Of a stretch of 64,000 bases of DNA, positions 2,780 to 22,570 are shown one piece after another. The notes below the pieces were generated by a model. That model saw only the letters and a program-made list of their open reading frames with translations. It ran no database searches and had not been told where the DNA came from. The stretch's first letter is position 1. Each line of letters begins with the position of its first letter. The stretch lies in assembly GCA_016870995.1 (NCBI GenBank), contig VFZU01000002.1, positions 1-64,000 on the forward strand, read 5' to 3'. The position numbers and the translations under genes are program-made. The stretch comes from Acidobacteriota bacterium (GTDB taxonomy: Bacteria > Acidobacteriota > Terriglobia > Bryobacterales > Bryobacteraceae).

Positions 2780-4782
2780 AAGACGTACTTCGATTCGACG
2801 TTCTTTTCGACATCCTTGCGCAGCCGCCACACCTCGCGTAGTTTCTTCTGGCTCAAGAGCGGAAGCTGATCCACATCGTGCTTGGTTCCCGGCTGCGAAG
2901 AATTGCCATAGCTCACCAGCACACGCCCCCGTGGCCCGCTCTTTAACCATTCAATAGCGGCTACGAAAGTGTCTCCATGCACCGGAGCGCGATTCGGCCC
3001 AAACCGGATCACACGAAACGCCCCCAACGCCCCATCCCCCCCATTACCCGGGAAATCCGCCCCACGATACTTGAAGCGGTTCACATCTCCATAAGAAATA
3101 TCCAGTCGCCCGAAACTCTTCTCCACCTCGGCCGCCGCCTTCGCCAGCGCCTCCACGCCCGCCGCCGCGTTCTTCAAACCCATCGGAGTCTTCAGCGGGT
3201 CCTTCAAATCAGCCGCCACCTTCCACTCCGGCCGGAATCCACGCATCAGCGTCTCAAATAAGACCGCGCCTGTGCTCGCGTTATCCGCGTTCCGGTCCCA
3301 CGCAGCCAACACCCTCTTTGCCGCTGAATCGGGTGCCGCCGCCAAAAGATCATCCAGCATCCGGTCGGCAGTCTCGAAATGCGTCGAGTGCTTATACTCA
3401 ACGAGCTTGTCGAAGCTCAGCTTCTCGTCCTTACTCAACATCCGCAACGAAGACCGCGACCGCATCGAAACCTCCGACGCCGTCGTGTAGGCCGGAAACG
3501 CCTTCGGATCCAGCGTCGGCAAAGTCGCCGTCCAAGGCGGATCGTTCGTATTCTGCACCCAACCCACCGGCGGATCAATCACCTTCGGCAACTCCGCATA
3601 CGTGTGATAGGAATTCCACAACGTCTTGCTCGTATCTCCCGGCACGACGCCCGCCCAATAAGCAGCATCTCCGCTCTTGCGTTTCGGCATCGTCCCGTTA
3701 AACAGGTACATCACATGCCCATCCTTATCGGCGTACGTAATGTTAAACGTCGGCACCTCAAGCCGCGCCACCTGCGCCTGATACTCCGCAAAGTTCTTCG
3801 CGATCGCCATTTTCCAATACTGCTCAAGTAGAAACGGACGATCGAGCCCACCCGTCCGCATCGCCAGCACTTTCCCGTCCTGGTCCCACACCACCGGCCC
3901 ATGCACCGTCTTCTTCACTTCCATCACCACATCCGCCCCACCCTTCACCTTGAGCGTCACCTGCGACTTCTCATAGGCCTTCTTCTCGCCGTCAAATCGG
4001 TACCCATCCCCATCCGGCGTGATCTTGTACAAATCACTCGCATCCATCGAATTCACTGTCTGCGTGAACCCGAGATAATCGCTGAACACAAACCGCAACA
4101 CAGGGAATCCAATCTGGCTTGCCCCATACAAATTGGCCCCCGGCCCATTCAAGTGGATCTCGTAATACGTGTACCAGTCCTGCCACGGCAGATGCGGATT
4201 CATCAACATCATCGGTGTGCCGTCCGCGCTCTTCTTCGGCATAATGGCCCAAGCGTTCGACCCGATCCCACCTGGTTCCGCCCCTCTTCCCGTCGCCGCC
4301 GCCCTTACCCGCAATTGAGACGACACATAGCTGAAGTGCACAATCCGGTGCACATGCATCAAGCTATCCACCGGCTCAATTGGCAAAACTTGTTTGTACT
4401 CTTCCCCGATCGCTTCCGGGTGCCGTTTGGCATACTCATTCATCCCGTTCGCAAACGCCACCAGATACTTCTTGAACTCCGGCGTCTGCATTTTGTACCA
4501 CTGCTCGGCCCGCTCCGGCACCCCGTTCAAACGAACCCATTTGTCCAACTCGAGCCCCTTCGGCCCCCAATACTCCGCCCCGCGCCCGCGCGATTCCCCA
4601 TACAACTTCAGAATTAAATTTGCATGGCTTTGCATCTGCGCATAGCCATATCCATAAAACATCCCCTCACGATCCCGCGCATACACATGCGCCACGCCAT
4701 AGCGATCCCAGAGAATTTCCACACCCCTGGGCGCCGCCCCCATTGGCATCGCAATACAACACAATACGAACGCAAGCTTCAT
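2776..4782 (-). CDS. Penicillin acylase / acyl-homoserine-lactone acylase family hydrolase
   Basis: 668 residues with a signal peptide (MKLAFVLCCIAMPMGAA) for export. The N-terminal segment reads EILWDRYGVAHVYARDREG, a hallmark of Ntn-hydrolase acylases. The autoprocessing site is visible as GGIGSNAWA, where Ser175 would become the N-terminal nucleophile of the beta chain; an HNxH-like substrate loop follows (MNPHLPW). Members cleave amide bonds of beta-lactams, acyl-homoserine lactones or cyclic lipopeptides; the substrate cannot be read from sequence. The length is a little short for the family. It is divergent from the esterase at 4819 with only 36 bases between starts, and ends stop-to-stop with the carboxylesterase. 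Confidence 0.9.
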   Translation of the reverse strand: MKLAFVLCCIAMPMGAAPRGVEILWDRYGVAHVYARDREGMFYGYGYAQMQSHANLILKLYGESRGRGAEYWGPKGLELDKWVRLNGVPERAEQWYKMQTPEFKKYLVAFANGMNEYAKRHPEAIGEEYKQVLPIEPVDSLMHVHRIVHFSYVSSQLRVRAAATGRGAEPGGIGSNAWAIMPKKSADGTPMMLMNPHLPWQDWYTYYEIHLNGPGANLYGASQIGFPVLRFVFSDYLGFTQTVNSMDASDLYKITPDGDGYRFDGEKKAYEKSQVTLKVKGGADVVMEVKKTVHGPVVWDQDGKVLAMRTGGLDRPFLLEQYWKMAIAKNFAEYQAQVARLEVPTFNITYADKDGHVMYLFNGTMPKRKSGDAAYWAGVVPGDTSKTLWNSYHTYAELPKVIDPPVGWVQNTNDPPWTATLPTLDPKAFPAYTTASEVSMRSRSSLRMLSKDEKLSFDKLVEYKHSTHFETADRMLDDLLAAAPDSAAKRVLAAWDRNADNASTGAVLFETLMRGFRPEWKVAADLKDPLKTPMGLKNAAAGVEALAKAAAEVEKSFGRLDISYGDVNRFKYRGADFPGNGGDGALGAFRVIRFGPNRAPVHGDTFVAAIEWLKSGPRGRVLVSYGNSSQPGTKHDVDQLPLLSQKKLREVWRLRKDVEKNVESKYVF

Positions 4783-4818
4783 TCGACTAGAATACTCTGG
4801 CTGTTATCCTTTGGTTTC

Positions 4819-5535
4819 ATGCACCGCGAATACCACCATTGGTGGAGCCCCCGCCTCCAAAAGGACATGCAAATCCTCCAGTTTGGCCATTCTGGCCATC
4901 CGGTCCTGGTTTTCCCTTCCTCAATGGGCTCTTTTCATGAGTACGAAGACCAACGCATGGTCGAGACCCTTTACGACCGCCTCAACTACGGACACCTCAT
5001 GCTGTTCTGTGTCGACAGCGTCGACGCCGAATCCTGGTACAACAAGCGTGCCCACCCCGCCGACCGCGTCCGCCGCCATGACGATTACGAGCAGTACATC
5101 CTTCACGAAGTTCTTCCGCTGATTCGCCACCGGTCAGGTCGCATTGACCTCACTGTCCACGGTTGCTCCTTTGGTGGCTACCACGCACTCAACTTCGCCC
5201 TCCGTCATCCCGACGCTGTCACGAAATGCGTTGCTATGTCGGGCGCATTCAATAACCGCAACTTCCTGCAGGGCTACTCGGACGACCTGCTTTACTTCCA
5301 CAACCCCGTCGATTACGTCCCCAACCTCGACAGCGCCTGGCATCACTCCCACTTTCACGGTGATTGGTTCACGATCCTCGCTGCCTCAAATCACGACATC
5401 TGCCTCGGCGACAATTACAAAATGGCCGAACTGCTTGGCCGTAAACACATCCCACATCGGCTTGACGTTTGGAACAACGACATGCCCCACGATTGGCCCC
5501 TGTGGCGCCTCATGGCCCGCGCTTACTTCGCTTAA
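4819..5535 (+). CDS. Alpha/beta-fold esterase (putative esterase/COG4947-like)
   Basis: 238 residues, cytoplasmic (no leader). Start chosen at ATG 4819 because the longer frame runs antisense through the acylase gene. The sequence opens with MHREYHHWWSPRL and has VLVFPSSMGS as the oxyanion region, a nucleophile elbow HGCSFGG with Ser117, and a likely catalytic His224 in NDMPHDWPLW. This matches the esterase-D-like group of serine hydrolases often encoded next to ATP-grasp ligases. It lies 18 bases upstream of an ATP-grasp gene and probably heads a four-gene operon up to 7426. A role in releasing, capping or trimming the ligase product is inference. Confidence 0.88.
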   Translation: MHREYHHWWSPRLQKDMQILQFGHSGHPVLVFPSSMGSFHEYEDQRMVETLYDRLNYGHLMLFCVDSVDAESWYNKRAHPADRVRRHDDYEQYILHEVLPLIRHRSGRIDLTVHGCSFGGYHALNFALRHPDAVTKCVAMSGAFNNRNFLQGYSDDLLYFHNPVDYVPNLDSAWHHSHFHGDWFTILAASNHDICLGDNYKMAELLGRKHIPHRLDVWNNDMPHDWPLWRLMARAYFA

Positions 5536-5553
5536 CAAAGGACCCAGTTGATC

Positions 5554-6489
5554 ATGCGCAAAATTGCTGTCGTATACGGAATGGAGACCAGCTTCCCGCC
5601 CGCCCTGGTCGATTACATTAACTCGATGAAGGTGCCGGGTGTTGCCGCTGAACACCTCCGCATCGGTGGCATCAAGATGGCCGAACCTACCGGCTATAAC
5701 GTCATCGTGGATCGCATCAGCCACGACATTCCCTTTTATCGCGCCTTCCTGAAAAATGCCGTCCTCGGGGGCACTCACGTCATCAACAACCCCTTCTGGT
5801 GGAGTGCCGACGACAAGTTCTTCAACTATGCGATGGCTTCCAAGATCGGCATCGCCATCCCTAAAACAGCGATCCTGCCCCACCACTCTCACCCGCCGGG
5901 CACCACCGCGCAATCGATGAGGAACCTGATGTTCCCCCTTAATTGGCAGGAGATTTTCGATTACGTCGGCTTCCCCGCGTTCCTCAAGCCCTTTGATGGC
6001 GGCGGCTGGCGCGACGTTTACAAAGTTGACAACCCGGAAGAACTCTTCGCCGCCTATAACCAGACCGGCACTCTGTGCATGACCCTCCAGGCCGCCGTTA
6101 ACTTCACCGAATACTACCGCTGTTATGTCGTTGGCCAGGAACACGTCCACATCATGCAGTACGACCCGCGCGCCCCCCACTCCGACCGCTACGTCAAGAA
6201 CCCCGAGCCGCTCAAACCGGAAATGCAATCGCGGCTCACCAACGATTGCCTCAAGATCTGTCGCGCTCTTGGCTACGATCTCAACACCGTCGAGTTCGCT
6301 GTCGAAGACGGCATCCCCTATGCCATCGACTTCATGAACCCTGCCCCCGACGCTGGTATCGAATCGGTGGGCAAAGCGAACTTCGACTGGATCGTGAAAC
6401 ACGTCGCCGAACTCGCGGTCCGCAAGGCCCTATCAGACGACTCCCCGGCGTCAGAATACCGCTGGGCCAATTTCCTCAACGGCAAATAG
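5554..6489 (+). CDS. ATP-grasp domain ligase
   Basis: 311 residues starting MRKIAVVYGMETSFP. An AAAGGA ribosome-binding site lies at 5537-5542; a TTG six bases upstream is an alternative start. ATP-grasp features: a nucleotide-binding Lys in AFLKPFDGGGW (Lys145) followed by a glycine-rich loop, an acidic and aromatic substrate loop in the middle, and the metal-binding pattern AIDFMNPAPD (Asp259, Asn262). Such enzymes form an amide or peptide bond through an acyl-phosphate. The product is unknown. It sits between the alpha/beta esterase and the RraA-like gene in a tight operon (gaps of 18 and 4 bases). Confidence 0.88.
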   Translation: MRKIAVVYGMETSFPPALVDYINSMKVPGVAAEHLRIGGIKMAEPTGYNVIVDRISHDIPFYRAFLKNAVLGGTHVINNPFWWSADDKFFNYAMASKIGIAIPKTAILPHHSHPPGTTAQSMRNLMFPLNWQEIFDYVGFPAFLKPFDGGGWRDVYKVDNPEELFAAYNQTGTLCMTLQAAVNFTEYYRCYVVGQEHVHIMQYDPRAPHSDRYVKNPEPLKPEMQSRLTNDCLKICRALGYDLNTVEFAVEDGIPYAIDFMNPAPDAGIESVGKANFDWIVKHVAELAVRKALSDDSPASEYRWANFLNGK

Positions 6490-6493
6490 CGAT

Positions 6494-7222
6494 ATGAAGA
6501 AACTTCTTCTCATCCCGGTTGCGGCCATCCTGCTCGTCGGCTTCCAACAAGCCACACGACCCACTTACGCTGACCCTCTGCTGAATGGTTTCGCCAAATC
6601 CACCGTGGCTTCGGTCGCCGATGCCGTCGATCAAATCACTGGCCAGCGCGGTTACATGAGTCACGACATGCGCCCCCGCGTCGGCATGGCCTTCGTCGGC
6701 CGCGCCACCACAGCCATCCTGAAGCCTGCCCCGCCCGAGCAAGCCACTGCAGCCCTCTCCGCCAAAGACAGCGTCGCCATGATCGACGCCGCAAAGCCCG
6801 GCGAAGTCGGCATCATCGTTGTCGAAGGCTCTCTCGACCTCGCTGGAATGGGTGGCCTGATGGCCACCGCTGCCAAGAGCCGCAACATGGCTGGCATTGT
6901 CCTTGACGGCGGGGTTCGCGACATCGCCGAGATCCGGTCCCTCGGCTTGCCCGTCTTTGCAAGGTCCGTCAGCCCGGGTTCGAGCGTCGGCCGTTGGGCC
7001 AGCGTCGGCAAAGACATCCCCGTTACCTGCGGAGGAATCAAGGTCACCCCCGGCGACATCATCGTAGCTGGTGAAGATGGCGTCGTTGTCGTTCCCAAAG
7101 CTCAGGAGCAAGCCATCCTCAAGCGCTCTCAGGAAATCGATGACCGCGAAACCAAAATGGTCCCCTTCATCAAACAATTCAAGAGCCTCACCCAAACCGT
7201 TCAAAAGTTCAACCGCATTTAA
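6494..7222 (+). CDS. Secreted RraA-like / HMG-aldolase-fold protein
   Basis: 242 residues. The body matches the RraA/4-hydroxy-4-methyl-2-oxoglutarate aldolase family: SVADAVDQI near the start, then MAFVGRATT, VIDAAKPGEVGIIVVEG, and the core GIVLDGGVRDIAEIRSLGLP holding the conserved Gly-Gly and Arg-Asp used for pyruvate and metal binding in aldolases. Unusually it begins with a clear signal peptide (MKKLLLIPVAAILLVGFQQA), so it should act outside the cytoplasm; RraA and the aldolases are normally cytosolic. It follows the ATP-grasp gene by 4 bases and precedes a small membrane protein by 3. Function in this setting is unknown. Confidence 0.85.
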   Translation: MKKLLLIPVAAILLVGFQQATRPTYADPLLNGFAKSTVASVADAVDQITGQRGYMSHDMRPRVGMAFVGRATTAILKPAPPEQATAALSAKDSVAMIDAAKPGEVGIIVVEGSLDLAGMGGLMATAAKSRNMAGIVLDGGVRDIAEIRSLGLPVFARSVSPGSSVGRWASVGKDIPVTCGGIKVTPGDIIVAGEDGVVVVPKAQEQAILKRSQEIDDRETKMVPFIKQFKSLTQTVQKFNRI

Positions 7223-7225
7223 CCC

Positions 7226-7426
7226 ATGGATCAAAACATTCCCAAACAACAAATCGGCTATGTTCTGCTGACCTTGAGCGCAGTCCTCTTTGCTTTGATC
7301 TTCTTCCTGTTCTACCGGAACCTGACTGGCGAGGGAGGCCCGATCGCAGTCCCTCTTGGCCTCATACCCATCGCCCTTCTCAACTCGATCTTGGGCGCAA
7401 ACCTGATCGCGAAAGTGAAACCCTAG
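7226..7426 (+). CDS. Small membrane protein, 66 aa
   Basis: A 66-residue protein with two hydrophobic stretches, YVLLTLSAVLFALIFFLFY (about 12-30) and a second around PLGLIPIALLNSILGANLI (about 43-61), so two membrane helices joined by a short polar loop. It begins 3 bases after the RraA-like gene and is the last gene of the operon that starts at 4819. Its stop codon shares the palindrome CTAG (7423-7426) with the stop of the opposite gene. No family recognised. Confidence 0.75.
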   Translation: MDQNIPKQQIGYVLLTLSAVLFALIFFLFYRNLTGEGGPIAVPLGLIPIALLNSILGANLIAKVKP

Positions 7427-8442
7427 GGCGCCTTGCGCCGCGGCACCAGCCGCTTCACTTCTTCGATCAGTTCGATGGTGCTTTCCGTTCGCGCCACCAC
7501 GCGCCGGGACGCATCCAGCAACACATAGGTCGGGTATAGCCCCACCCTTAAACGAGAATCGTACAGCCACGCGGGCTCGGTCCCCTGCACGTCCGGCCAC
7601 AATACCTCAAACTGAGCGAGCACCTTCGAAGCTGCCCCGGCGTCTTCATCCCCATTCAAACCCAACACCTTCAAATCGTAGGTCTCAGCAAGGGCCTTCA
7701 GTTGTGGAAATGCCGCAATGCAGGGCCCGCACCAGCTCGCCCAGTAGTCCACCACCGTAAAGGCTGCGCCGTGGCTGCTCAAGGTCCGTCGCTCCTTCAG
7801 GCGATCCACATAAGTCACATCGGGAATCACGTCGCCGACTTTCATCTGCGGCCCGAGCGGCGCCTCGCGCATCAAGACCACCCGCCGCTGCCAATCCACG
7901 GCTTCAATCGTGTAACCCTTGCCCTCAATTTCGAACACCCCACCCTTCACCCGCGCATACTCTGCCGGGGAATTCACTTCGATTTTTCCGTCCCCGTTCA
8001 CATCCACCCCTTGAGGCCCACGCCCTGCAATGTCGACCATAGCCAGACGATTTCCACATCGCGCCGCTGCATAGGCACTTCCACTGACCTGAACCGTCAC
8101 TTCCGCCGCCCCCCAACCCACCTGATTGCGAAATACCCGCACCGCCTTCGGCACGTACTCGAATCCATTCTCGCCAGAGAAAACTTTCGCGATCCCTTCA
8201 ACCCCCAACAAGCCCATCGGCTTCAAATCGACAACCCGGCGTTCGATCAAAACACCAAAGGCGCCATCCCCAATCCGTCGGGTCAACTCGACATTCCCCG
8301 CCCGCCAAGTCTCAAACCCCCTGGCCGCCTTCTGTCTTTTCAGGATCACCGGCCGAAAATCCCCACCCGGCGGCAACCGCGCCTCACTCTCAATCCCACA
8401 CTCCAGCAGCTGCGCCAGCGCCACCGCCGCAATCCAATACAT
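7423..8442 (-). CDS. TlpA-like thioredoxin-domain protein with N-terminal extension
   Basis: 339 residues from ATG 8442 (MYWIAAVALAQLLEC, leader-like; another ATG lies six codons upstream). The C-terminal ~140 residues form a TlpA/ResA-type thioredoxin domain with FTVVDYWASWCGPC (active-site Cys238 and Cys241 by this numbering) and the cis-Pro region LYPTYVLLD. The first ~200 residues are an unrecognised beta-rich domain holding DVNGDGKIEVNS, a calcium-loop-like pattern also seen in dockerins. Likely a periplasmic thiol-disulfide reductase tied to protein maturation or redox sensing. Divergent from the TonB receptor at 8512. Confidence 0.85.
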   Translation of the reverse strand: MYWIAAVALAQLLECGIESEARLPPGGDFRPVILKRQKAARGFETWRAGNVELTRRIGDGAFGVLIERRVVDLKPMGLLGVEGIAKVFSGENGFEYVPKAVRVFRNQVGWGAAEVTVQVSGSAYAAARCGNRLAMVDIAGRGPQGVDVNGDGKIEVNSPAEYARVKGGVFEIEGKGYTIEAVDWQRRVVLMREAPLGPQMKVGDVIPDVTYVDRLKERRTLSSHGAAFTVVDYWASWCGPCIAAFPQLKALAETYDLKVLGLNGDEDAGAASKVLAQFEVLWPDVQGTEPAWLYDSRLRVGLYPTYVLLDASRRVVARTESTIELIEEVKRLVPRRKAP

Positions 8443-8511
8443 ACCCTCATCATCCAACAATCACTCTGTGGCTAGAATTGTGATAGATTATTTCAGATTT
8501 CAGGGATTTCC

Positions 8512-11500
8512 ATGAAGAACAAAATTACGTCCACTTTCCTCGCCGCCGCCCTGCTGCTGGCTGCGCTCCCCGCCTACTCACAACAAGGCCGTGGCACCAT
8601 CCTCGGCACCGTGACTGACTCGAGCGGGGCGCCCGCCGCCGCAGTCCTCGTCCGTGTCACGAACATCGCCACCAACACCACCTTCGAGACCCGCACCACA
8701 TCGGAAGGTCTCTACCAAGCCCCGAACCTCGCCGTTGGCGACTACTCCGTCACGGCCGAGCTCGCCGGCTTCCGTAAGGTCGTCCGAACCGGCATCCAAC
8801 TTCAGGTCGACCAGCGCGCCCAAGTCGACATTCGCCTCGAAGTCGGCCAAGTCACCGAATCGATCGAAGTCGCAGCCGAAGCTCCGCTTGTTGATACCTC
8901 CAACACTTCGATCGGTAAAGTCGTCGATCAGAAGCGAGTCAGCGAACTTCCCCTGAACGGCCGCAACGCCCTCGCGCTGACGCTCCTTACCCCCAGCGTC
9001 AAATCAAACGCCGGCCCAACTTCTTCGGGCTTCGCGGATCGCGGCATCCAGCTTTCAAGCATCTCGATCAACGGTGGCCCCAACGCGATGAATGGCCAGC
9101 TCCTCGATGGCGGCAACAACATCCAGAGCTACATCGGTGAGGTCGCCATCAACCCCGGCGTTGATTCGGTCGAAGAGTTCAAAGTCCAGTCCGGTGGCAT
9201 GTCCGCCGAATACGGGTTTACCGCCGGTGGCGTCATCAATATGGTGACCCGCTCCGGCACCAACCAGATCAAGGGCAGCATCTACAACTTCTTCCGCAAC
9301 GATGCGCTCGACGCGCGAAACACCTTCGCCGTCACCAAGCCGCCCTTCCGCTACAACCAGTTCGGCGCTTCCGTCGGCGGACCAGTCATCAAAGATCGCA
9401 CCTTCTTCTTCGGCAACTGGGAAGAATACCGCTTCAACCGTTCCCGCGCCCTGATCACCAGCTTCCCCACCGTGGGCCAGCGCACAGGAAACTTTAGCGA
9501 TCTCTTTACCGCCGCCGGAGCACTGATTCCCATCTATGACGCTTTCTCCACTCAAGGCTCCGGCACCGCAGCCACACGCGCCATCTACCCGGGCAACATC
9601 ATTCCGGCCACTCAACTGGATCCTGTCGCCCGTGCGATCAACGAGTTCTATCCGCTCCCCAACCGAACTCCTACGGACCGATTCACCAACGCCAATAACT
9701 TCCTTGGCATTGCCAAAGAGATCCAGACCATGCGGCAGTACACGCTCAAGGGCGACCACAAGTTCTCTTCAAACAACTCCATGTTTGGCCGCTATTCTTT
9801 CTTCAATCACAAGACCGACAATGGCGGCGGCGGCGCGGCCCTCTATCCGAACGAAGTCGTTGGCAAGCGTGACGACGACCTCAAGAACTGGAACGTTGTT
9901 CTCTCCGATACTCACGTTGTTTCACCAACGATCGTCAACGAACTGCGCGTCGGTGCCACTCGTGGCTACTTCCCATTCATCGTCCGCAGCTTCGGCGGCG
10001 GCTGGCCGCAAAAGCTCGGCTTGCCTTCTATCGTCCCGGCCGATACGTTCCCGGCCATCAGCAATGGTTTGACAGGCTTCAACACTGGCACTGCCGGTGT
10101 TCGTGGCAGCTTGAACTGGCAGTTTCTCGATCAGGTCAACATCATTCGCGGCAAGCACTCGATGAAGATCGGCTTCGACCTCCGCCTCCTTCAGGGTCAC
10201 AACCTGCAACGCTCTGCCCCCTCTGGCAGCTTTAACTTTGCCGCTGCCTTGACGGGCAACCCCACCGTTCCCGCTGGCACTGGCAGCGCTTACGCCAGCT
10301 TCCTACTCGGCGCGGTCTCAAACGCCAGCGTCTCCACTCACGTTGGTGAGTCGCAGGTTAGCCATTCGATTTCCGGTTACTTCCAGGACGACTGGAAGAT
10401 CTCCAAGCGCTTCACGCTCAATCTCGGCCTCCGTTATGACTACCAGTCGCAAGCTGTCGAGCGCAACAACGGTTCCACGAACTTTGATCCCACCTGCACT
10501 TTGCCCAATGGCTTGGCTGGTTGCCTCGTCTTTGCTGGTGTCGGTGGCCAACCCCGCAACTGGCGCGGCGAAGACTACACCAACTTTGGCCCACGCATTG
10601 GTTTCGCTTTCGACGTGTTCGGCAACACGAAGACCATTCTGCGCGCCGGCTACGGCATGATGTACCCCTCGCAGATGTGGCGTGAAAACTATGGCAACGC
10701 GAATGGCTTTGCCCAAACCACCACCAACTATCCACAGAATGATCCATTGCGCCCTGCCTTCCAGCTCCGCAATGGCTTCCCCTCGGCACCCGTCCCACCG
10801 CAGGGCCGTGCCCTTGGAGCGGCCGCCTTCCTCGGACAGAACGTTGCATACGACGAATCGAATGGCGACATCCCTCGCATTCAGCAGTTCACGCTGAGCC
10901 TTCAGCAACAGATGTTCAAGAGCTGGCTCTTTGAAGCCTCCTATGCCGGCAACCTCGGCCGTGGGCTAACGGCTGGCAGCTATGACTTGAATCAACTGGA
11001 TCCGCAGTTCCTCGCTCTGGGCCAGGCGCTCACCCAGCAGGTTCCCAATCCCTTTGCTGGCCGCGTTCCTGGCGCTCTCGGCGGCGCAACCATTTCCCGC
11101 GAACAGTCGCTCCGGCCTTACCCCTATTACAACGCCGTCACGGTTCGCAATCCTCGCCTCGGTAGCTACAACTCGCACCTGCTGCTACTGAGCGCCGAGA
11201 AGCGATTCTCGAAAGGCCTCGCCTTCTTGTTCTCCTACACCGGCGGCAAGATCATCTCCGACTCGATCGCCACGCCCGTCAACTTCGGCCCCATCGAACA
11301 AGCCTCCATCGTTGGCTATCAGAACGGGAAATTCAACCGCGCCGCAGAGCGTAGCGTCGACCCCTCCGACGTCGCCCAGCGCGCCACGATCAGCCTCGTC
11401 TATGAGCTCCCCTTCGGTAAGGATCAGAAGGGTATCAACAAGCTCATCGGTGGCTGGCAGGTCAACACCATCGGCATCATGCAGACCGGCATTCCGCTGG

Positions 11501-11901
11501 TCGTGACTGGTGCCAACAATCAGCGCGCCAATCGCCCTGATTCCACCGGCAAATCCCCGGCTATCGACAATCCCACGGCACAGCGCTGGTTCGACACGAC
11601 TGCCTTTGTGAATCCTGCTCCATTCACGTTTGGCAATGTTGGTCGCACGATCCCTGATGTGCGCACACCAGGCACGAAGAACTTCGACTTGTCGTTCATC
11701 AAGAACACTCGCATCGTCGAACGCTTCAACCTGCAGTTCCGCACCGAGATGTTCAACTTCATGAACAACGTCAACCTCGGCGCCCCCAACGCGGCGTTTT
11801 CTCCTGGTCCCAGCGGCTTCAACCAGTCTGGCAACTTCGGAGTCATCACTTCAGCCCGCGACGCACGCACGATCCAGTTGTCACTTAAGCTTATGTTTTA
11901 G
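8512..11901 (+). CDS. TonB-dependent receptor, Oar-like, with carboxypeptidase-regulatory domain
   Basis: 1129 residues with a signal peptide (MKNKITSTFLAAALLLAALP...AYSQQ). Residues about 28-110 form a carboxypeptidase-regulatory/beta-sandwich repeat (GTILGTVTDSSGAPAAAVLV). A plug domain follows with the acidobacterial signature LPLNGRN, then a long outer-membrane beta-barrel rich in aromatic strands and ending RTIQLSLKLMF with a C-terminal Phe, as expected for BAM recognition. Imports an unknown large substrate with TonB energy. AGGGA lies 6 bases upstream of the ATG. Its stop TAG overlaps the GTG start of the acetyltransferase gene by one base. Confidence 0.93.
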   Translation: MKNKITSTFLAAALLLAALPAYSQQGRGTILGTVTDSSGAPAAAVLVRVTNIATNTTFETRTTSEGLYQAPNLAVGDYSVTAELAGFRKVVRTGIQLQVDQRAQVDIRLEVGQVTESIEVAAEAPLVDTSNTSIGKVVDQKRVSELPLNGRNALALTLLTPSVKSNAGPTSSGFADRGIQLSSISINGGPNAMNGQLLDGGNNIQSYIGEVAINPGVDSVEEFKVQSGGMSAEYGFTAGGVINMVTRSGTNQIKGSIYNFFRNDALDARNTFAVTKPPFRYNQFGASVGGPVIKDRTFFFGNWEEYRFNRSRALITSFPTVGQRTGNFSDLFTAAGALIPIYDAFSTQGSGTAATRAIYPGNIIPATQLDPVARAINEFYPLPNRTPTDRFTNANNFLGIAKEIQTMRQYTLKGDHKFSSNNSMFGRYSFFNHKTDNGGGGAALYPNEVVGKRDDDLKNWNVVLSDTHVVSPTIVNELRVGATRGYFPFIVRSFGGGWPQKLGLPSIVPADTFPAISNGLTGFNTGTAGVRGSLNWQFLDQVNIIRGKHSMKIGFDLRLLQGHNLQRSAPSGSFNFAAALTGNPTVPAGTGSAYASFLLGAVSNASVSTHVGESQVSHSISGYFQDDWKISKRFTLNLGLRYDYQSQAVERNNGSTNFDPTCTLPNGLAGCLVFAGVGGQPRNWRGEDYTNFGPRIGFAFDVFGNTKTILRAGYGMMYPSQMWRENYGNANGFAQTTTNYPQNDPLRPAFQLRNGFPSAPVPPQGRALGAAAFLGQNVAYDESNGDIPRIQQFTLSLQQQMFKSWLFEASYAGNLGRGLTAGSYDLNQLDPQFLALGQALTQQVPNPFAGRVPGALGGATISREQSLRPYPYYNAVTVRNPRLGSYNSHLLLLSAEKRFSKGLAFLFSYTGGKIISDSIATPVNFGPIEQASIVGYQNGKFNRAAERSVDPSDVAQRATISLVYELPFGKDQKGINKLIGGWQVNTIGIMQTGIPLVVTGANNQRANRPDSTGKSPAIDNPTAQRWFDTTAFVNPAPFTFGNVGRTIPDVRTPGTKNFDLSFIKNTRIVERFNLQFRTEMFNFMNNVNLGAPNAAFSPGPSGFNQSGNFGVITSARDARTIQLSLKLMF

Positions 11902-12701
11902 TGGCTCTGACGAATTCTGCGATCCGGTCAGCACTCGACCAACTCGGCATCCAGACGGGTGACACCGTTATGGTCCATTCCAGTCTCCGCGCCATCGGCC
12001 CGATTACCGGTGGCGCGGAGATTCTCATTCGGGCCCTCCTTGAGGCCATCGGCCCTGCCGGAACTCTGGCTGCTTACGTCGACTTTGAGCCCTTTTACGA
12101 AGACGACGATCCCGAGATCCCTGTTTTTGACAAACACACGGCATCAGCCGCTCGCGATCACGGCGTCCTCCACGAGCTCATCCGAACCTGGCCTGGTTCG
12201 CTCCGCAGCGACCACCCTGGCGCCGGCGTTTCTGCGATCGGAGCCCAGGCCAAGTGGATCACGAGTGAACACCCGTTCCACTACGGCTACGGCCCCGGAA
12301 CGCCCTTCGCGAAACTACTTGAGCTGAATGCGAAAATTCTGATGCTCGGCGCGCCCCTCGACACGATCACGATGCTCCACTACGCCGAACATGTCGCGAA
12401 AATCCCGGACAAAAATGTTGTCCGTTACCGCCACCTGATGCCGACCGCTGATGGACCTCAATGGCTCGATTTTGAGGAGTTCGATACCAGCGACCCGGTT
12501 CATCCCAGCCTCCCAATCAATGTCTTCGAGCAAATCGCCGAAGCCTTCCTCGCATCTGGTCAGGGCCATCAGGCCCCTCTCGGTAATGCCACGGCCACCC
12601 GCCTCGATAGCCAGTCTCTGATCCCCTTTGCCATTACCTGGCTTGAAAAATTTGTGCTCACCTTCCCCGCCTCAAACAAGCCCGCAAAATTTTCGGCCTG
12701 A
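11901..12701 (+). CDS. AAC(3)-type aminoglycoside N-acetyltransferase family protein
   Basis: 266 residues beginning at GTG 11901, which shares one base with the preceding stop (TAGTG). Family landmarks: GDTVMVHSSLRAIGPI near the N-terminus, GTLAAYVDF, the aspartate/proline-rich loop, SDHPGAGVSAIG, GPGTPFAKL, and LGAPLDTITMLHYAE with the conserved His. The family transfers an acetyl group from acetyl-CoA to the 3-amino group of aminoglycosides, but many environmental homologues act on other amines. Coupling to a TonB receptor gene suggests it may modify an imported or exported amine. Resistance is possible but not shown. Confidence 0.88.
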   Translation: MALTNSAIRSALDQLGIQTGDTVMVHSSLRAIGPITGGAEILIRALLEAIGPAGTLAAYVDFEPFYEDDDPEIPVFDKHTASAARDHGVLHELIRTWPGSLRSDHPGAGVSAIGAQAKWITSEHPFHYGYGPGTPFAKLLELNAKILMLGAPLDTITMLHYAEHVAKIPDKNVVRYRHLMPTADGPQWLDFEEFDTSDPVHPSLPINVFEQIAEAFLASGQGHQAPLGNATATRLDSQSLIPFAITWLEKFVLTFPASNKPAKFSA

Positions 12702-12943: not shown

Positions 12944-14050
12944 ATGAGCAAGCCCTCTCTGACGATCGGCATTGAAGAGGAGTACCAGACGATCGATCCC
13001 GAAACCCGGGACCTACGATCTCACATCTCGGCCGAGATCATTTCCAAGGGCCAGCGCATTCTCGCCGAACGCGTTAAGCCCGAAATGCACCAAAGCGTCG
13101 TCGAAGTCGGTACAGGTATCTGCCACAACATTCAGGAAGCCAAGGCCGACCTCCGCGAACTTCGCACCAGCATCATCGGCCTCGCCAAGCAAAATAGCCT
13201 CCGCATCGCCGCCGCATCGACTCACCCCTTCGCAGATTGGCGCAAGCAGGAAATTTACCCAGACGAGCGCTACGCCACGATCGTCGAAGACATGCAGTCG
13301 GTCGCTCGCTCTAATTTGATCTTTGGCCTTCACGTGCACATTGGTATCGAAGACCGCGAAGCAGCGATTCAAATCATGAACGCTGCACGTTACTTCGTCC
13401 CTCACGTGCTTGGACTCACCGCCAATTCCCCGTTCTGGCTTGGTCTTGAAACCGGCCTCAAGAGCTATCGCTGTAAGGTCTTCGATAAGTTTCCTCGCAC
13501 AAACATCCCGGATTACTTTCCTTCGTGGGGCGAATATACAAACTTCGTGAACCTGCTGATCAAGACGAACTGCATCGACAACGCGAAGAAGATCTGGTGG
13601 GATATTCGGCCTCATCCAAGCTTTCCAACCCTTGAGTTCCGCATCATGGATCTCCCGATGCGGCTCGACGAAACCATCGCCATCGCCGCACTGTTGCAGG
13701 CCACGGTGGCCAAGCTCTATAAGCTTCACACCAATAACCAGGGCTTCCGGCTCTACCGCCGGGCGCTTATCATGGAGAATAAGTGGCGCGCTGCGCGCTA
13801 CGGCCTCGAAGGCAAGCTAGTCGACTTCGGCAAACAGATCGAAGTCCCCTTGAGAGACCTGCTTTTTGAGTACCTTCATTTCATCGACGACGTGGTCGAT
13901 GAGTTAGGCAGTCGGGAAGAAATTTCCTACATCTATAAGATGCTGCGCGCTGGTACGGGAGCGGACCGGCAGCTCCAGGTTTGGCGCGAAACCGGCGACC
14001 TGAAGAAGGTTGTCGACTACGTTATTTCTGAAACGGAGGCTGGCCTTTAA
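12944..14050 (+). CDS. GCS2/YbdK-family carboxylate-amine ligase
   Basis: 368 residues. Opens with LTIGIEEEYQTID (Glu11-13 region), the ATP/metal-binding start of the glutamate-cysteine ligase 2 (YbdK, COG2170) family. Other landmarks: MHQSVVEVGTGIC, LRIAAASTHPFADW, FGLHVHIGIED (His130, His132), ANSPFWLG and LEFRIMDLPM. These enzymes join an amino group to a carboxylate with ATP; E. coli YbdK has weak glutamate-cysteine ligase activity and the true products of most members are unknown. First gene of a three-gene operon with an M29 aminopeptidase and an ATP-grasp-like protein; its stop is one base before the next start. Confidence 0.92.
   Translation: MSKPSLTIGIEEEYQTIDPETRDLRSHISAEIISKGQRILAERVKPEMHQSVVEVGTGICHNIQEAKADLRELRTSIIGLAKQNSLRIAAASTHPFADWRKQEIYPDERYATIVEDMQSVARSNLIFGLHVHIGIEDREAAIQIMNAARYFVPHVLGLTANSPFWLGLETGLKSYRCKVFDKFPRTNIPDYFPSWGEYTNFVNLLIKTNCIDNAKKIWWDIRPHPSFPTLEFRIMDLPMRLDETIAIAALLQATVAKLYKLHTNNQGFRLYRRALIMENKWRAARYGLEGKLVDFGKQIEVPLRDLLFEYLHFIDDVVDELGSREEISYIYKMLRAGTGADRQLQVWRETGDLKKVVDYVISETEAGL
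14035..14039 (+). promoter_or_regulatory. Ribosome-binding site for the M29 gene (non-ATG start)
   Basis: GGAGG at 14035-14039, inside the end of the GCS2 gene. It sits 12 bases before TTG 14052 and is the only strong site near the start of the aminopeptidase. It favours TTG 14052 over the upstream TTG 14010, which has no comparable site. Confidence 0.45.
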
Positions 14051-14051
14051 A

Positions 14052-15065
14052 TTGTTGCTCGCTACATTTGATCCTGAATTACTTCCTGGTGCGCGCAACG
14101 CCGTCAGAACCTGCCTTCGGATTGACCCCTCTGAGCGCGTTACGCTGATTACCGACAAGGCTTGCGAGGAAATCGCCGCCGCACTGGCCCATGAGCTCAC
14201 TGACCTTGGCTGCGAGTTTATGGCGTTTCGCCTCGAAGACTTTGCCGACCGCCCTTTGGCCGGTATGCCTGAAGTTGTTCTTTCTGACATGGAGCTGTCG
14301 AGCGTCTCCATCTTTGCCGTTGTGGCCCAGCAAGGTGAACTTCACAGCCGCATGCAAATGACCGATGTCGTGAACCGACGCCGCATGCGCCACGCGCACA
14401 TGGTCAACATCGAAAAGCGGATCATGATGCAAGGGATGCGCGCCGACTTCCACCGTGTGGATGCGCTGTCTGTGCAGGTCCGTGACATCGCCGCCAGCGC
14501 CAAGAAGATCAAGGCCACTACCGCCAATGGCACACACATCATTGCCGACATGCACCCTGACTACAAGTGGATCAAGACCAGTGGCATCATCTCTACCGCC
14601 AAGTGGGGCAATCTCCCGGGCGGTGAGTGCTTTACCTCTCCAGGTGAAGTGAACGGCGTCTTTGTAATCGATGGCGTTGTGGGAGATTATCTTTGCGCCA
14701 AGTATGGCGACTTGCGGAATACACCACTCACGGTGAAGATCGAGAAGAACCGCATGGTCTGGGCTGAATCCAAGAACAAAGAACTGCGCGACGAATTCTG
14801 GGCTTACTGTCACACCGACGAGAACTCCAATCGCGTTGGCGAATTTGCGATCGGCACCAATCTTGCCCTTGACAATGTGATTGGCAACATCCTGCAGGAC
14901 GAGAAGATTCCTGGCATTCATATCGCCTTCGGCAACCCCTACGGCGCCCACACTGGTGCTGACTGGTGGTCAGGAACGCATATCGATGTAGTGGGTCGCA
15001 AGTTCAATATCTGGGCCGATGATCGCCAGATCATGCGCGACGGCCACTTCCTGCTCGAACACTAA
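14052..15065 (+). CDS. M29-family metallo-aminopeptidase
   Basis: 337 residues from TTG 14052; no ATG exists before residue 57 and the conserved N-terminal fold needs the earlier start. A likely full set of M29 metal ligands is visible: Glu192 (LPGGECFTSPG), Glu264 (RVGEFAIGTN), His290 (GIHIAFG), Tyr297 seven residues later, and His310/Asp312 (GTHIDVV). M29 enzymes (AmpS, AmpT) remove N-terminal residues with two cobalt or zinc ions. The N-terminal half is more divergent from textbook members. It sits between two ATP-dependent ligase genes, with gaps of one base on each side, so it probably trims or recycles their peptide product. Confidence 0.88.
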   Translation: MLLATFDPELLPGARNAVRTCLRIDPSERVTLITDKACEEIAAALAHELTDLGCEFMAFRLEDFADRPLAGMPEVVLSDMELSSVSIFAVVAQQGELHSRMQMTDVVNRRRMRHAHMVNIEKRIMMQGMRADFHRVDALSVQVRDIAASAKKIKATTANGTHIIADMHPDYKWIKTSGIISTAKWGNLPGGECFTSPGEVNGVFVIDGVVGDYLCAKYGDLRNTPLTVKIEKNRMVWAESKNKELRDEFWAYCHTDENSNRVGEFAIGTNLALDNVIGNILQDEKIPGIHIAFGNPYGAHTGADWWSGTHIDVVGRKFNIWADDRQIMRDGHFLLEH

Positions 15066-15066
15066 A

Positions 15067-16257
15067 ATGATCACCGCTCTTCGCGAGGATTTTAATCGCC
15101 GCTGGACCCCAGAGAAGTATCAACAATTCCTCCATTCGATCGACTCTGCGATCGGACGGCACGTTGAATTCCGCCACTCGGAGACCCCTTGCTTCTTCCC
15201 CCGCGAACTCCTGCAGGAGATGTCGCGCGCGGGCCGTGAGCTCGTTGGCCAACTTCTCAACAACAAGCTCTATATGGAGGCATCCGACCGCGAGATTCCA
15301 CCGCAGTATCGTGTGCCGAACGAAGCGAGCGCGCCTCTGTTCATTCAAGCTGATTTCGGCATCGTTCACGAGAATGGTCGCCTCGCTCCAAAGTTGGTCG
15401 AGATCCAGGGCTTCCCGAGCCTTTACGCCCACCAGACCGAGATGGCGCGCCAGTATATGCGTGCCTATGATCTCGACCCCAATCTCAAACATCTCCTGAG
15501 CGAGCTCGACCTCGGCCAGTATCACTCGCTCCTGGGTGAGGCGATCCTCAACGGCCACTCCCCTGAGAACGTGATTCTGATGGAGATCGACCCCGATCAG
15601 CAAAAGACGGTCTGCGATTTTATCTGCACCGAACGTATCTACAAGATCCGAGCAGTCTGCATCACCAAGATCAAGAAGCGTGGCAACAAGCTTTACTATG
15701 ACCGCGATGGCGTCGAGACCCCAATCCATCGTATCTACAACCGTGCCATCTTCGATGAGCTTGAGCGCAAGAAGGTAGAGATCCCCTTTCATTGGACTGA
15801 CGATTTGCAGGTGGAATGGGCGGGCCATCCGAACTGGTTCTTCCGCCTGAGCAAGTTCTCGATCCCCTGGTTTAACCACCCCACGGTGCCGAAGAGTCAT
15901 TTCTTCCACGAAGTGACCGACCTTCCCAGCGACCCTGAGAATTACGTTTTGAAGCCTCTGTACAGCTTTGCTGGCATTGGCGTAATTGTCGGCCCAACAA
16001 CAGAGCAATTGGAAGCGATCCCGTTCCGCGACCGCCGTCATTACATCCTTCAAGAGCGCGTCCGGTTCGCTCCCACCATCAACACGCCCCACGGACCCAC
16101 GATGGCTGAAGTTCGCATCATGTACATCTGGCTCCCGAGCACGCAACTACCGATGGCGGCGAATATGATTGTCCGCATGGGCAGAGGCAAGCAGATGGGT
16201 GTCGACCACAACAAGAACCTCGAATGGGTCGGCGCCTCAGCGGGCTTCTACCTTTAA
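15067..16257 (+). CDS. ATP-grasp-like protein (glutathionylspermidine-synthase-like fold)
   Basis: 396 residues from ATG 15067, one base after the aminopeptidase stop. Not a standard family I can name, but the C-terminal third has ATP-grasp marks: ENYVLKPLYSFAGIGVIVGP (Lys296 and a glycine-rich loop), YILQERV (Glu330) and AEVRIMYIW (Arg350). The middle holds KLVEIQGFPSLYAHQ, like the substrate/metal segment of circularly permuted ATP-grasp enzymes. Predicted to form an amide bond using ATP. Last gene of the GCS2-M29-ATP-grasp operon. Its stop shares TTAA (16254-16257) with the opposite DUF1501 gene. Confidence 0.75.
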   Translation: MITALREDFNRRWTPEKYQQFLHSIDSAIGRHVEFRHSETPCFFPRELLQEMSRAGRELVGQLLNNKLYMEASDREIPPQYRVPNEASAPLFIQADFGIVHENGRLAPKLVEIQGFPSLYAHQTEMARQYMRAYDLDPNLKHLLSELDLGQYHSLLGEAILNGHSPENVILMEIDPDQQKTVCDFICTERIYKIRAVCITKIKKRGNKLYYDRDGVETPIHRIYNRAIFDELERKKVEIPFHWTDDLQVEWAGHPNWFFRLSKFSIPWFNHPTVPKSHFFHEVTDLPSDPENYVLKPLYSFAGIGVIVGPTTEQLEAIPFRDRRHYILQERVRFAPTINTPHGPTMAEVRIMYIWLPSTQLPMAANMIVRMGRGKQMGVDHNKNLEWVGASAGFYL

Positions 16258-17645
16258 GCGAGCAGGGACTGAATGACGTGGCCGTGGACGTCAGTGAGAC
16301 GTCGATTGAGGCCATTGTGGTACCAGGTGAGCTTTTCATGGTTGAGGCCCAGAAGGTGCAGGACCGTGGCCCAGAAGTCGTAGACCGTGGCTGCGTTTTC
16401 AACTACGCGGCGGCCGAAGTCGTCGGTTGCGCCCCAGGATGAGGCAGGCCTGATGCCAGCTCCCAGCATCCAGACTGTGTAGGCATCGGGGTTGTGGTCG
16501 CGACCAAGAGTCCCTTGCTGATGGGTAGGCATACGGCCAAATTCCGTGGTCCAAATGACGAGAGTGTCGTTGAGAAGACCACGAGCGGCAAGGTCTTGAA
16601 TGAGGCCAGCAGTGGGTTGATCGAGGATCGGGAGATGGCGATCGTAGTCTGCCTGAAGAGTCTTGTGTGCGTCCCAATTCAGAAGGCCATCAACCCCAGA
16701 GGCTCGGGAGGCGCAGTAGAGCTGCACGTATCGAACGCCGCGTTCCACCAGACGACGAGCAAGAAGGCAGTTGCGGGCGTAGGCGGCGAGCAAGGGGTTT
16801 GAGTGGTTGGTGCCGTAGAGGTCCAGGGTGGCTTTGGATTCGCTCGAGATGTCGGCTACTTCAGGGGCGGAAAGTTGCATCCTGGCCGCAAGAGCGTAGG
16901 AAGCGATGCGAGCCTGAAGTTCGGAATCGCCGGGGTGAAGCGCGGCGTGACGAGTATTGAGGAAAGTCGAAAGGTCGAGAGTCGCCTGGTCCGCCTCTGG
17001 CGAGACGACAGAGGGGCGAGCGAGATTTCGAATCGGGCTCGCCGCATTGAAGGCGACGCCCTGGTGCTCGGCAGGAAGAAAACCGGAGGTCCAGTTCGCC
17101 GGGCCTGAAGGCGGAATGCCTCTAATGTCGGGAATGGCGACGTAGGCGGGGAGGTTGTCGCTCTCTGCACCGAGAGCGTAGCTGAGCCAGGCGCCGGCAG
17201 AGGGGAAGCCTTCGAAGACAAAGCCGGTATTCATAGCGACGCAGGCAGGGCCGTGGGTGTTGGAGCGGGAACTCATGGAGTGGATGAAGGCCATGCGGTC
17301 CACGTGCCGGGCGAGGTGCGGGAGCTTGGTGGTGATGGGCTTGCCGGATTGGCCTGCGGGCGCGAAAGCCCAAGGGCTGCGCATCAGGTTGCCATTGGCA
17401 CCCTGAAAGGTGACGTCCTTATCGCCGCCGGGCATAGGCTGGCCGCTGCGTTTTTCGAGCTCAGGCTTGTAATCGAAGGTGTCGATGTGGGAGACGCCGC
17501 CAGGACAAAAGATCTGAATGACGCGCTTGGCTTTGGGAGTGAAGTGAGGTTGCCTGGTGGCACCGGAGAGCAGGTCGGCGGCGGCGATAGCGCCGAGGCC
17601 GTTGAGGAAGCCGCGGCGATGGAGAGCGTGGCTGTTAGTAGACAT
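16254..17645 (-). CDS. DUF1501 family protein, twin-arginine leader
   Basis: 463 residues from ATG 17645, which overlaps the stop of the upstream DUF1553 gene by 11 bases; a longer frame exists but adds only antisense-like residues. The leader has LHRRGFLNGLGAIAAADLL, a twin-arginine signal. The body is DUF1501, a sulfatase/alkaline-phosphatase-superfamily relative: IQIFCPGGVSHIDTFDYKP, NTHGPACVAMNTG, TLVIWTTEFGRMP and GRDHNP. DUF1501 genes are almost always paired with DUF1549/1553 genes in Planctomycetes and Acidobacteria, and the role is thought to be in polysaccharide or sulfate-ester breakdown, unproven. Confidence 0.92.
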   Translation of the reverse strand: MSTNSHALHRRGFLNGLGAIAAADLLSGATRQPHFTPKAKRVIQIFCPGGVSHIDTFDYKPELEKRSGQPMPGGDKDVTFQGANGNLMRSPWAFAPAGQSGKPITTKLPHLARHVDRMAFIHSMSSRSNTHGPACVAMNTGFVFEGFPSAGAWLSYALGAESDNLPAYVAIPDIRGIPPSGPANWTSGFLPAEHQGVAFNAASPIRNLARPSVVSPEADQATLDLSTFLNTRHAALHPGDSELQARIASYALAARMQLSAPEVADISSESKATLDLYGTNHSNPLLAAYARNCLLARRLVERGVRYVQLYCASRASGVDGLLNWDAHKTLQADYDRHLPILDQPTAGLIQDLAARGLLNDTLVIWTTEFGRMPTHQQGTLGRDHNPDAYTVWMLGAGIRPASSWGATDDFGRRVVENAATVYDFWATVLHLLGLNHEKLTWYHNGLNRRLTDVHGHVIQSLLA

Positions 17646-21877: not shown

Positions 21878-22570
21878 ATGCAGGCGAGAGTGGCGCTAGT
21901 AGGGGATTTCGATTCGCGAGTGATTGCTCATCAGGCGATTCCGCTAGCGATTGAGCGAGCTAAGCGATCTTTGCAAGTCGACTCGCTGCGGTACGAGTGG
22001 AAGCATACGGCGAGTCTTAGCTCTCTTGAAAGCTATGACGGAGTTTGGTGTGTTCCTGCTTCTCCCTATGCCGATGAAGGGGCGGCGCTTGAGTCGATTC
22101 GTTGGGCGAGAGAAGGCCGAGTCCCCTTTCTTGGAACCTGTGGCGGATTTCAACATGCGGTGCTCGAATTCGCGAGGAAAGTACTGGGAATCGAATCGGC
22201 CGAGCATGAAGAGACCGCAACCGGCGCAGGGCCGCTAGTGATCTCAAGGTTGTCTTGTTCACTTGTCGAAGTAGAAGAGGATGTCTTTGCGACTGAAGGA
22301 TCGCGGTTTGCGCAAATCTATGGAGGAGGACCGATCTGGGCTGGCTATCACTGCAATTTCGGCTTCAACGCAAATCTCGTGGAGGCCTTTGAAACTGCCG
22401 GGATGAAGGTGGCGGCTACAGATGGGCAAGGGGAAGTGCGAGCAATGGAGTTGGCGGATCATCCTTTCTTTGTCGGAACGCTTTTTCAACCGGAGCGGAG
22501 CGCACTGAGAGACCAGCCGTCGCCCCTAATTGAGGCGTTTATCCGTGCCGTAACCGAACGCGGGCGATGA
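21878..22570 (+). CDS. CTP-synthase C-terminal-like glutamine amidotransferase, His replaced
   Basis: 230 residues resembling the stand-alone glutaminase half of CTP synthase (the CTP-synthase C-terminal-related protein group). The opening MQARVALVGDFDSRVIAHQA and the segment VPFLGTCGGFQHAVLE with the nucleophile Cys are clear. The usual catalytic pair in an F-H-P-E motif reads GTLFQPERSAL here, so the His is replaced by Gln while the Glu is kept. Glutaminase activity is therefore doubtful; a thiol chemistry or binding role is possible. It stands alone, 62 bases before the blaI-like gene. Confidence 0.85.
   Translation: MQARVALVGDFDSRVIAHQAIPLAIERAKRSLQVDSLRYEWKHTASLSSLESYDGVWCVPASPYADEGAALESIRWAREGRVPFLGTCGGFQHAVLEFARKVLGIESAEHEETATGAGPLVISRLSCSLVEVEEDVFATEGSRFAQIYGGGPIWAGYHCNFGFNANLVEAFETAGMKVAATDGQGEVRAMELADHPFFVGTLFQPERSALRDQPSPLIEAFIRAVTERGR

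Follow-up and report, generated by a model that had tools for sequence, protein, structure and literature searches.

The DNA analyzed here (the window) is a 64,000-nucleotide stretch at the start of contig VFZU01000002.1, from an Acidobacteriota bacterium of the family Bryobacteraceae. Four closely packed plus-strand genes at positions 4819-7426 encode an esterase, an ATP-grasp ligase (ligase 1), an RraA-like protein, and a 66-amino-acid (aa) open reading frame (ORF). The original prediction took the four for one operon that makes and releases an acyl or peptide product and has a role at the membrane. Its coordinates and gaps of 18, 4, and 3 bases agree with the ORF list, and the four-gene reading is partly supported. 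The natural unit is a recurring set of five genes: the esterase, ligase 1, a GCS2/YbdK-type carboxylate-amine ligase (GCS2), an M29-type metallopeptidase, and a second ATP-grasp ligase (ligase 2). Genes 1 and 2 are its front half. The set is split in the window, with the last three genes at 12944-16257, 5.5 kb beyond the front half and the insertions that follow it (Table 1).

Table 1. Genes of the split five-gene set and of the insertions within it (window positions)
Feature	Position	Strand	Remarks
Gene 1, esterase	4819-5535	+	238 aa; PF00756, alpha/beta hydrolase; leads the recurring set
Gene 2, ATP-grasp ligase 1	5554-6489	+	311 aa from ATG; the listed ORF begins at TTG 5548
Gene 3, RraA-like	6494-7222	+	242 aa; PF03737; signal-peptide-like N terminus (by eye); genus-specific insertion
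Gene 4, orphan ORF	7226-7426	+	66 aa; two hydrophobic stretches (by eye); gene status uncertain
Intervening block	7423-12701		thioredoxin-like, TonB-receptor-like, and AAC(3)-like genes; parts the two halves of the set
Thioredoxin-like gene	7423-8460	minus	4-base ORF overlap with the end of the 66-aa ORF
TonB-receptor-like gene	8512-11901		named by eye
AAC(3)-family aminoglycoside N-acetyltransferase-like gene	11901-12701		NF033082, 290.7 bits against a cut-off of 270
GCS2/YbdK-type carboxylate-amine ligase	12944-14050	+	PF04107; above the NF010039 cut-off
M29-type metallopeptidase	14043-15065	+	partial PF02073 match; start codon uncertain, listed ORF from TTG 14010
ATP-grasp ligase 2	15067-16257	+	glutathione-synthetase/glutathionylspermidine-synthase fold (predicted); ATG 15067 chosen by us within listed ORF 15019-16257

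We describe the set by its gene content, gene order, co-occurrence, predicted folds, and conserved candidate catalytic residues. Named loci are the best 80 of 578 confirmed ligase 1 loci, a choice that leans to close relatives. Many are cut by contig ends; their titles name Acidobacteria, Ignavibacteria, Kapaibacterium, Bacteroidota, KSB1, and Cloacimonetes, and most are metagenome assembled. In a first scan of 30 loci (the window copy and 29 others, flanked by up to 1.5 kb), the recurring neighbors were the esterase and the GCS2 ligase, and none of the 29 others held RraA or the small protein. Among the best 80 of the 578, the genes run in the order esterase, ligase 1, GCS2, peptidase, ligase 2, and 22 loci have a plus-strand match to all five. 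L062, from Bryocella elongata DSM 22489, is an example of a contiguous operon. GCS2 lies within 2 kb downstream of ligase 1 in 49 of the 70 loci with room for it, and 32 of 67 loci have the esterase no more than 1.5 kb upstream. The complete five occur in Acidobacteriota records and in one Ignavibacteriales record (locus L095); other lineages hold subsets. Clustering of the ORFs from the 80 loci lost true genes to antisense ORFs, the result of greedy picking in GC-rich DNA, and recovered ligase 1 in just 67 of the 80, although all of them carry it. We therefore relied on tblastn counts. With these losses, the clustering found no further core gene in the 80 loci.

The same partners travel together across a sample of 297 Acidobacteriota genomes, which includes the window's own and shares some records with the 80 loci. 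Ligase 1 had a match at 1e-3 in 123 genomes, and 78 of these were strong (E ≤6.4e-75). The strong set excludes 10 genomes with E of 1.9e-42 to 1.0e-32 and all weaker matches; two partial extra matches in G181 and G229 were dropped, and both genomes still count. At cut-offs of our own setting (esterase 1e-35, GCS2 1e-100, peptidase 1e-40, ligase 2 1e-10), the esterase is present in 85 genomes and is shared by 74 of the 78 (Fisher p 1.8e-52), GCS2 in 90 and 66 (p 4.3e-33), ligase 2 in 38 and 36 (p 3.5e-22), and the peptidase in 24 and 22 (p 2.5e-12); shared ancestry inflates all of these p-values. GCS2 follows ligase 1 on the same strand within 2 kb in 37 of the 66 genomes that have both, across 15 GTDB families; in 17 of 21, the peptidase lies no more than 2 kb past GCS2.

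RraA behaves differently. It stands directly after ligase 1 in all six same-genus genomes with a full ligase 1 gene (the window, G297 to G300, and G302). A seventh, G303, has RraA beside an ATP-grasp gene that is cut off by the contig edge, and G301 has neither gene at the cut-offs used. Among the seven other family genomes with ligase 1, RraA adjoins it in none of the regions fetched: six run the five genes in order without RraA, and the seventh, G319, shows the esterase and ligase 1 alone in its region. RraA is found within 3 kb downstream of ligase 1 in 2 of the 78 loci that offer 300 bases of room or more (best 80 of 578), both from Bryobacter sp., and 11 of 41 relatives carry it without a strong ligase 1 match (G307, G309, G311, G316, G317, G320, G321, G328, and G332 to G334). 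Because the other-genus genomes run the five genes without RraA, this gene was most likely inserted into an operon that already existed, and other genes came in later. The distance from RraA to GCS2 varies within the genus. It is 40 bp in G297 (L137), from which the genes of the intervening block are absent; 5.7 kb in G302 (L138); and 7.8 kb in G298 (L135), filled by the same three gene types as in the window. In G299 (L136), the contig stops 1.8 kb past RraA. Homologues of all three block genes are present in L135 and L147, and the thioredoxin-like gene alone precedes the contig end in L136. The AAC(3)-like gene, with its homologues in L135 and L147, sits between the TonB-receptor-like gene and GCS2.

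Gene 3 is an RraA-like protein, as had been predicted (PF03737 at 2.2e-33, 116.1 bits against 24.5), and is one of four PF03737 matches in its genome. It falls short of both equivalogs for the RNase E regulator RraA (NF006875, 55.7 bits against 136; TIGR02998, 26.2 against 241.25) and contains, by eye, GGVRD, which we take to be an aldolase-type motif. Gene 3 is tied to the ligases by position alone, in one genus. The 66-aa ORF matched no family in Pfam or NCBIfam, and in the 80 loci its matches were no better than chance (E 6.6 and 9.1). Its matches in 20 relatives were at E 0.0186 or worse, the one elsewhere in its own genome was at 0.0143, and the 13 family regions, same genus included, held none at E 0.01. 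This membrane protein is without a credible relative. The proposed role at the membrane is not supported, because the small protein has chance-level matches only, and RraA adjoins ligase 1 in one genus and occurs in relatives without it. In close relatives, then, the four genes come apart, gene 4 already within the genus and gene 3 outside it, and genes 1 and 2 hold together: across the family, the esterase and ligase 1 are kept as neighbors, RraA is kept beside them only within the genus, and the 66-aa ORF is not kept. On neighborhood and phyletic data, we rejected the four genes as a functional module. We regard the 66-aa protein, and probably RraA, as inserted neighbors or passengers, not as components of a pathway. 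Both look like local acquisitions that had a part in splitting the set in a single genus of soil bacteria.

The esterase matches PF00756 (4.5e-12, 46.7 bits against 22), in line with its first naming, and carries GCSFG in the window protein. In an alignment of 17 chosen sequences, the elbow serine is present in 16 and the histidine of an HDW/HNW motif in all 17. A penicillin-amidase family gene (PF01804; 2776-4782, minus strand) is divergent from the esterase and is also found upstream in L135 to L137 and L139. Ligase 1 has no Pfam match at 1e-3 and a weak RimK-family match in NCBIfam (2.5e-5), far below the RimK/LysX cut-offs (TIGR00768, 23.8 bits against 143.4; TIGR02144 LysX_arch, 18.8 against 275.6). 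Residues invariant among 26 chosen sequences include K88 and K145, which we take to be the conserved lysines; G149-G151, presumably the glycine-rich loop; W152; and E247, D259, and N262, presumably the acidic and asparagine metal ligands. A structure model of ligase 1 (predicted local distance difference test score [pLDDT] of 87) aligned to LysX, ArgX, and RimK with Z of 21.7-22.0 over 256-262 residues at 2.6-3.1 Å (5k2m_A: VIA Z 22.0, 256 residues, 2.7 Å); synapsins and D-Ala-D-Ala ligases came lower (Z <20). Because the fold matches (Z of about 22), ligase 1 may work like RimK and LysX, although we do not file it as a member of either family.

The product of the GCS2 gene is clearly a YbdK-type member by its sequence, with scores well above the cut-offs (NF010039, 546 bits against 371; TIGR02050, 307.5 against 176.4; PF04107, 207.4 against 21). 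Its residues 9-13, GIEEE, fit GhExE, the active-site signature of YbdK/GCS2-type ligases (PMC2588565). The peptidase matches PF02073 over residues 164-312 (9.1e-13, 48.2 bits against 27). Six of its residues, E195, E267, H293, Y300, H313, and D315, are invariant in 14 of 14 chosen sequences, and we take these to be candidate M29 metal-ligand or catalytic residues. Ligase 2 was placed only by its structure model (pLDDT 93), since classification by sequence failed in Pfam, NCBIfam, and PDB: it has no Pfam family at E 5 and no NCBIfam classification. The top Foldseek match is yeast glutathione synthase (1m0w_B, E 2.5e-16). Near full-length matches to YjfC, YgiC, human glutathione synthetase (GS), homoglutathione synthetase, and glutathionylspermidine synthetase (GspS) have Z of 25-26.4 (human GS, 2hgs: VIA Z 25.9, 368 residues, 3.5 Å). 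These are almost tied, and therefore the fold does not pick a substrate and is not GS specific. Past ligase 2 lie two large minus-strand ORFs (16254-20328), which seem to be a DUF1501-type and DUF1549/cytochrome-like pair. Farther on, 21878-22570 encodes a stand-alone glutamine amidotransferase related to the CTP-synthase C terminus (NF004836, 286 bits against 260).

What might the five genes do together? GCS2, RimK/LysX-fold, and GS-fold enzymes would each couple a carboxylate with an amino group and spend ATP on the bond. Acting together in the cytoplasm, the three ligases would assemble a short nonribosomal peptide or amide. Its synthesis would probably start with a gamma-glutamyl bond from the GCS2 enzyme, as we judge mainly from the GCS2 family itself. 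The M29-type aminopeptidase would trim or recycle the product, and the esterase would hydrolyze an ester intermediate or conjugate. That the split set encodes such a system, with three ATP-dependent amide ligases that build a small nonribosomal peptide or amide and hydrolases that trim it or turn it over, is the reading we favor, and we hold it to be reasonably probable. We infer the order of steps, the substrates, the product, and the service of all five genes in one pathway. The original prediction had seen in the esterase and the ATP-grasp ligase the synthesis and release of an acyl or peptide product, and this part stands: the two do point to a dedicated peptide or amide pathway. Its four-gene unit omitted the partners downstream. 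It had also known of no characterized pathway with such genes. The literature we searched, as titles and abstract beginnings, likewise gave no description of the five-gene set, and we do not claim that it is absent from print.

Several observations weigh against this reading. Ligase 2 follows the peptidase within 2 kb in only 11 of 21 genomes, a loose linkage. Of the 74 genomes with both the esterase and ligase 1, only 21 (5 families) have the esterase on the same strand and no more than 2 kb upstream, and in 8 more it is divergent. Parts of the set stand apart or on separate contigs in many genomes, which speaks against a rigid operon. GCS2 is missing at the cut-off from 12 of the 78 genomes with ligase 1, and the set is therefore modular. 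Even within the genus, the 13.7 kb fetched downstream of RraA in G300 (L139) contain no GCS2. Among the esterase relatives, one in L103 (9257-9976) has Asp where the nucleophile Ser would stand (GCDLG) and, judging from this residue, is perhaps not a serine hydrolase. Another, in L083, lacks the acid residue and lies 4 kb downstream rather than upstream.

The placement of ligase 2 meets resistance as well. Searched as a single sequence against PDB, it matched only unrelated proteins, none better than E 0.21, and its profile gave no match at E 10; its alignment comprised 17 sequences. The hhalign comparison with human GS has a probability of 2 percent, and the default run covers residues 288-357 only. 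Some pairings do count in favor: in this 2 percent alignment, invariant K296 of ligase 2 falls on K364, the ATP-binding lysine of human GS (PMC2845819). A -glob run aligned 9 columns only; the mapping over the full length was made at an accuracy threshold of zero and is of low confidence. In this forced 2 percent alignment, also in favor, invariant R226 falls on R267 and R370 on R450 of human GS, which bind the gamma-glutamyl carboxylate and the C-terminal (glycyl) carboxylate, respectively (PMC2845819). The gamma-Glu-Cys contacts of human GS are R125, S149, S151, E214, N216, and R267 (PMC2845819); in the same alignment, R125 and S151 fall on gaps, S149 on P117, E214 on Q179, and N216 on T181. 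The forced alignment is too weak to exclude gamma-Glu-Cys contacts in ligase 2.

Some loci exchange one part for another. A class-I glutamine amidotransferase (GATase)-like gene stands directly after GCS2 in two Ignavibacteria loci, L096 (4923-5744) and L108 (6087-6875), both by Pfam; L108 stops right after it and hence does not show that the M29 gene is absent. From the same BLAST cluster, L100 has a member (4067-5035) close to ligase 1. A CP_ATPgrasp_2-type gene of about 460 aa lies between ligase 1 and GCS2 in L075 (11005-12363; Pfam) and L099 (2434-3834; BLAST cluster), and one lies near GCS2 in L110 (3621-5072; Pfam). It is possible that this protein substitutes for ligase 2. The exchanges at L096, L108, L075, and L099 suit a logic of ligases plus hydrolases.

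Known systems resemble the set in part. The N-acetylglutaminylglutamine amide (NAGGN) system makes a small peptide solute with a dedicated ATP-grasp ligase and a dedicated peptidase; here, we noticed no asparagine-synthase-like protein or GNAT/ATP-grasp fusion, and the peptidase family is another. Iyer et al. (2009) reportedly surveyed amidoligase neighborhoods, including a general class in which ATP-grasp and GS-like ligases occur with unrelated peptidases. YbdK-family ligases (PF04107, TIGR02050, NF010039) cover our GCS2 enzyme above curated cut-offs, but here it sits within a multiligase set. Ligase 2 also shares its fold with Cp1B of the E-64 pathway (9cjn; Z 22.8, 357 residues). That pathway is fungal, starts from epoxysuccinate, and to our knowledge has no GCS2 or RimK-fold partner. 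Cp1B is a precedent for an ATP-grasp ligase that makes a small peptide product outside nonribosomal peptide synthetases (PMC12568646).

We considered that the ligases may instead modify a protein or a ribosomal peptide, in the manner of RimK or LysW tailing, and not make a free small molecule. The structures that match ligase 1 best are LysX and ArgX, determined together with the carrier protein LysW, and RimK, determined together with RpsF; the likeness to these systems extends to fold and ATP-grasp residues. Sequence similarity to them is weak, and no LysW-like or other conserved small carrier was seen in the 40 largest neighbor clusters of the 80 loci, built from ORFs of at least 70 aa (a shorter one would escape). 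The pairing of a GCS2 enzyme with a GS-fold ligase is also typical of small peptides, and we hold protein tailing to be unlikely.

A glutathione-like low-molecular-weight thiol is another candidate for the product. GCS2 would make gamma-glutamyl-cysteine, the GS-fold ligase would add the third residue, the esterase would act like S-formylglutathione hydrolase, and peptidases would recycle the thiol. Folds and gene order parallel glutathione and homoglutathione biosynthesis, which uses glutamate-cysteine ligase and a eukaryotic-type GS (Z 25.9 to 2hgs), and the window's own genome has no PF02955 match. YbdK, moreover, is credited with gamma-glutamyl:cysteine ligase activity in a reference cited in PMC2588565. 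But the set contains three further enzymes, a RimK-fold ligase, a peptidase, and an esterase; at the sequence level, ligase 2 matches no family; and most of the gamma-Glu-Cys contacts are unmatched in the low-confidence forced alignment, the cysteine contacts R125 and S149 among them. BshC is present in 75 of the 78 genomes with ligase 1, so bacillithiol is expected there, and the overlap is near complete rather than complementary. A role as a glutathione substitute is less likely because of this overlap; as a replacement for glutathione the set is disfavored, and we regard the thiol reading as improbable.

The four packed genes as a single envelope-linked pathway, a reading favored by their tight spacing and by RraA in all six same-genus genomes with ligase 1, appear very improbable to us, given that 76 of the 78 loci have no RraA within 3 kb downstream and the fetched regions of the seven other family genomes have none, that RraA occurs in genomes without a strong ligase 1 match, and that the 66-aa ORF is not found elsewhere, same genus included. 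An antiphage defense system was rejected: PADLOC gave 0 matches for 7 proteins at E 0.01.

A three-ligase pathway to a small peptide or amide remains our preferred reading of the set. In a more specific and tentative form, Acidobacteriota, Ignavibacteria, and relatives might make a gamma-glutamyl-type oligopeptide, an undescribed metabolite or cofactor, on a line of glutamine-synthetase-like, RimK-like, and GS-like ATP-grasp ligases, with its own peptidase and esterase, alongside bacillithiol. The four-gene "operon" of the window is a junction of an older gene set and a recent insertion, and it advises caution in inferring function from packing alone. If the pathway is real, two of its three ligases match no curated family above cut-off, and 78 of the 297 sampled Acidobacteriota genomes, together with several other bacterial lineages, would carry a pathway for a peptide metabolite.

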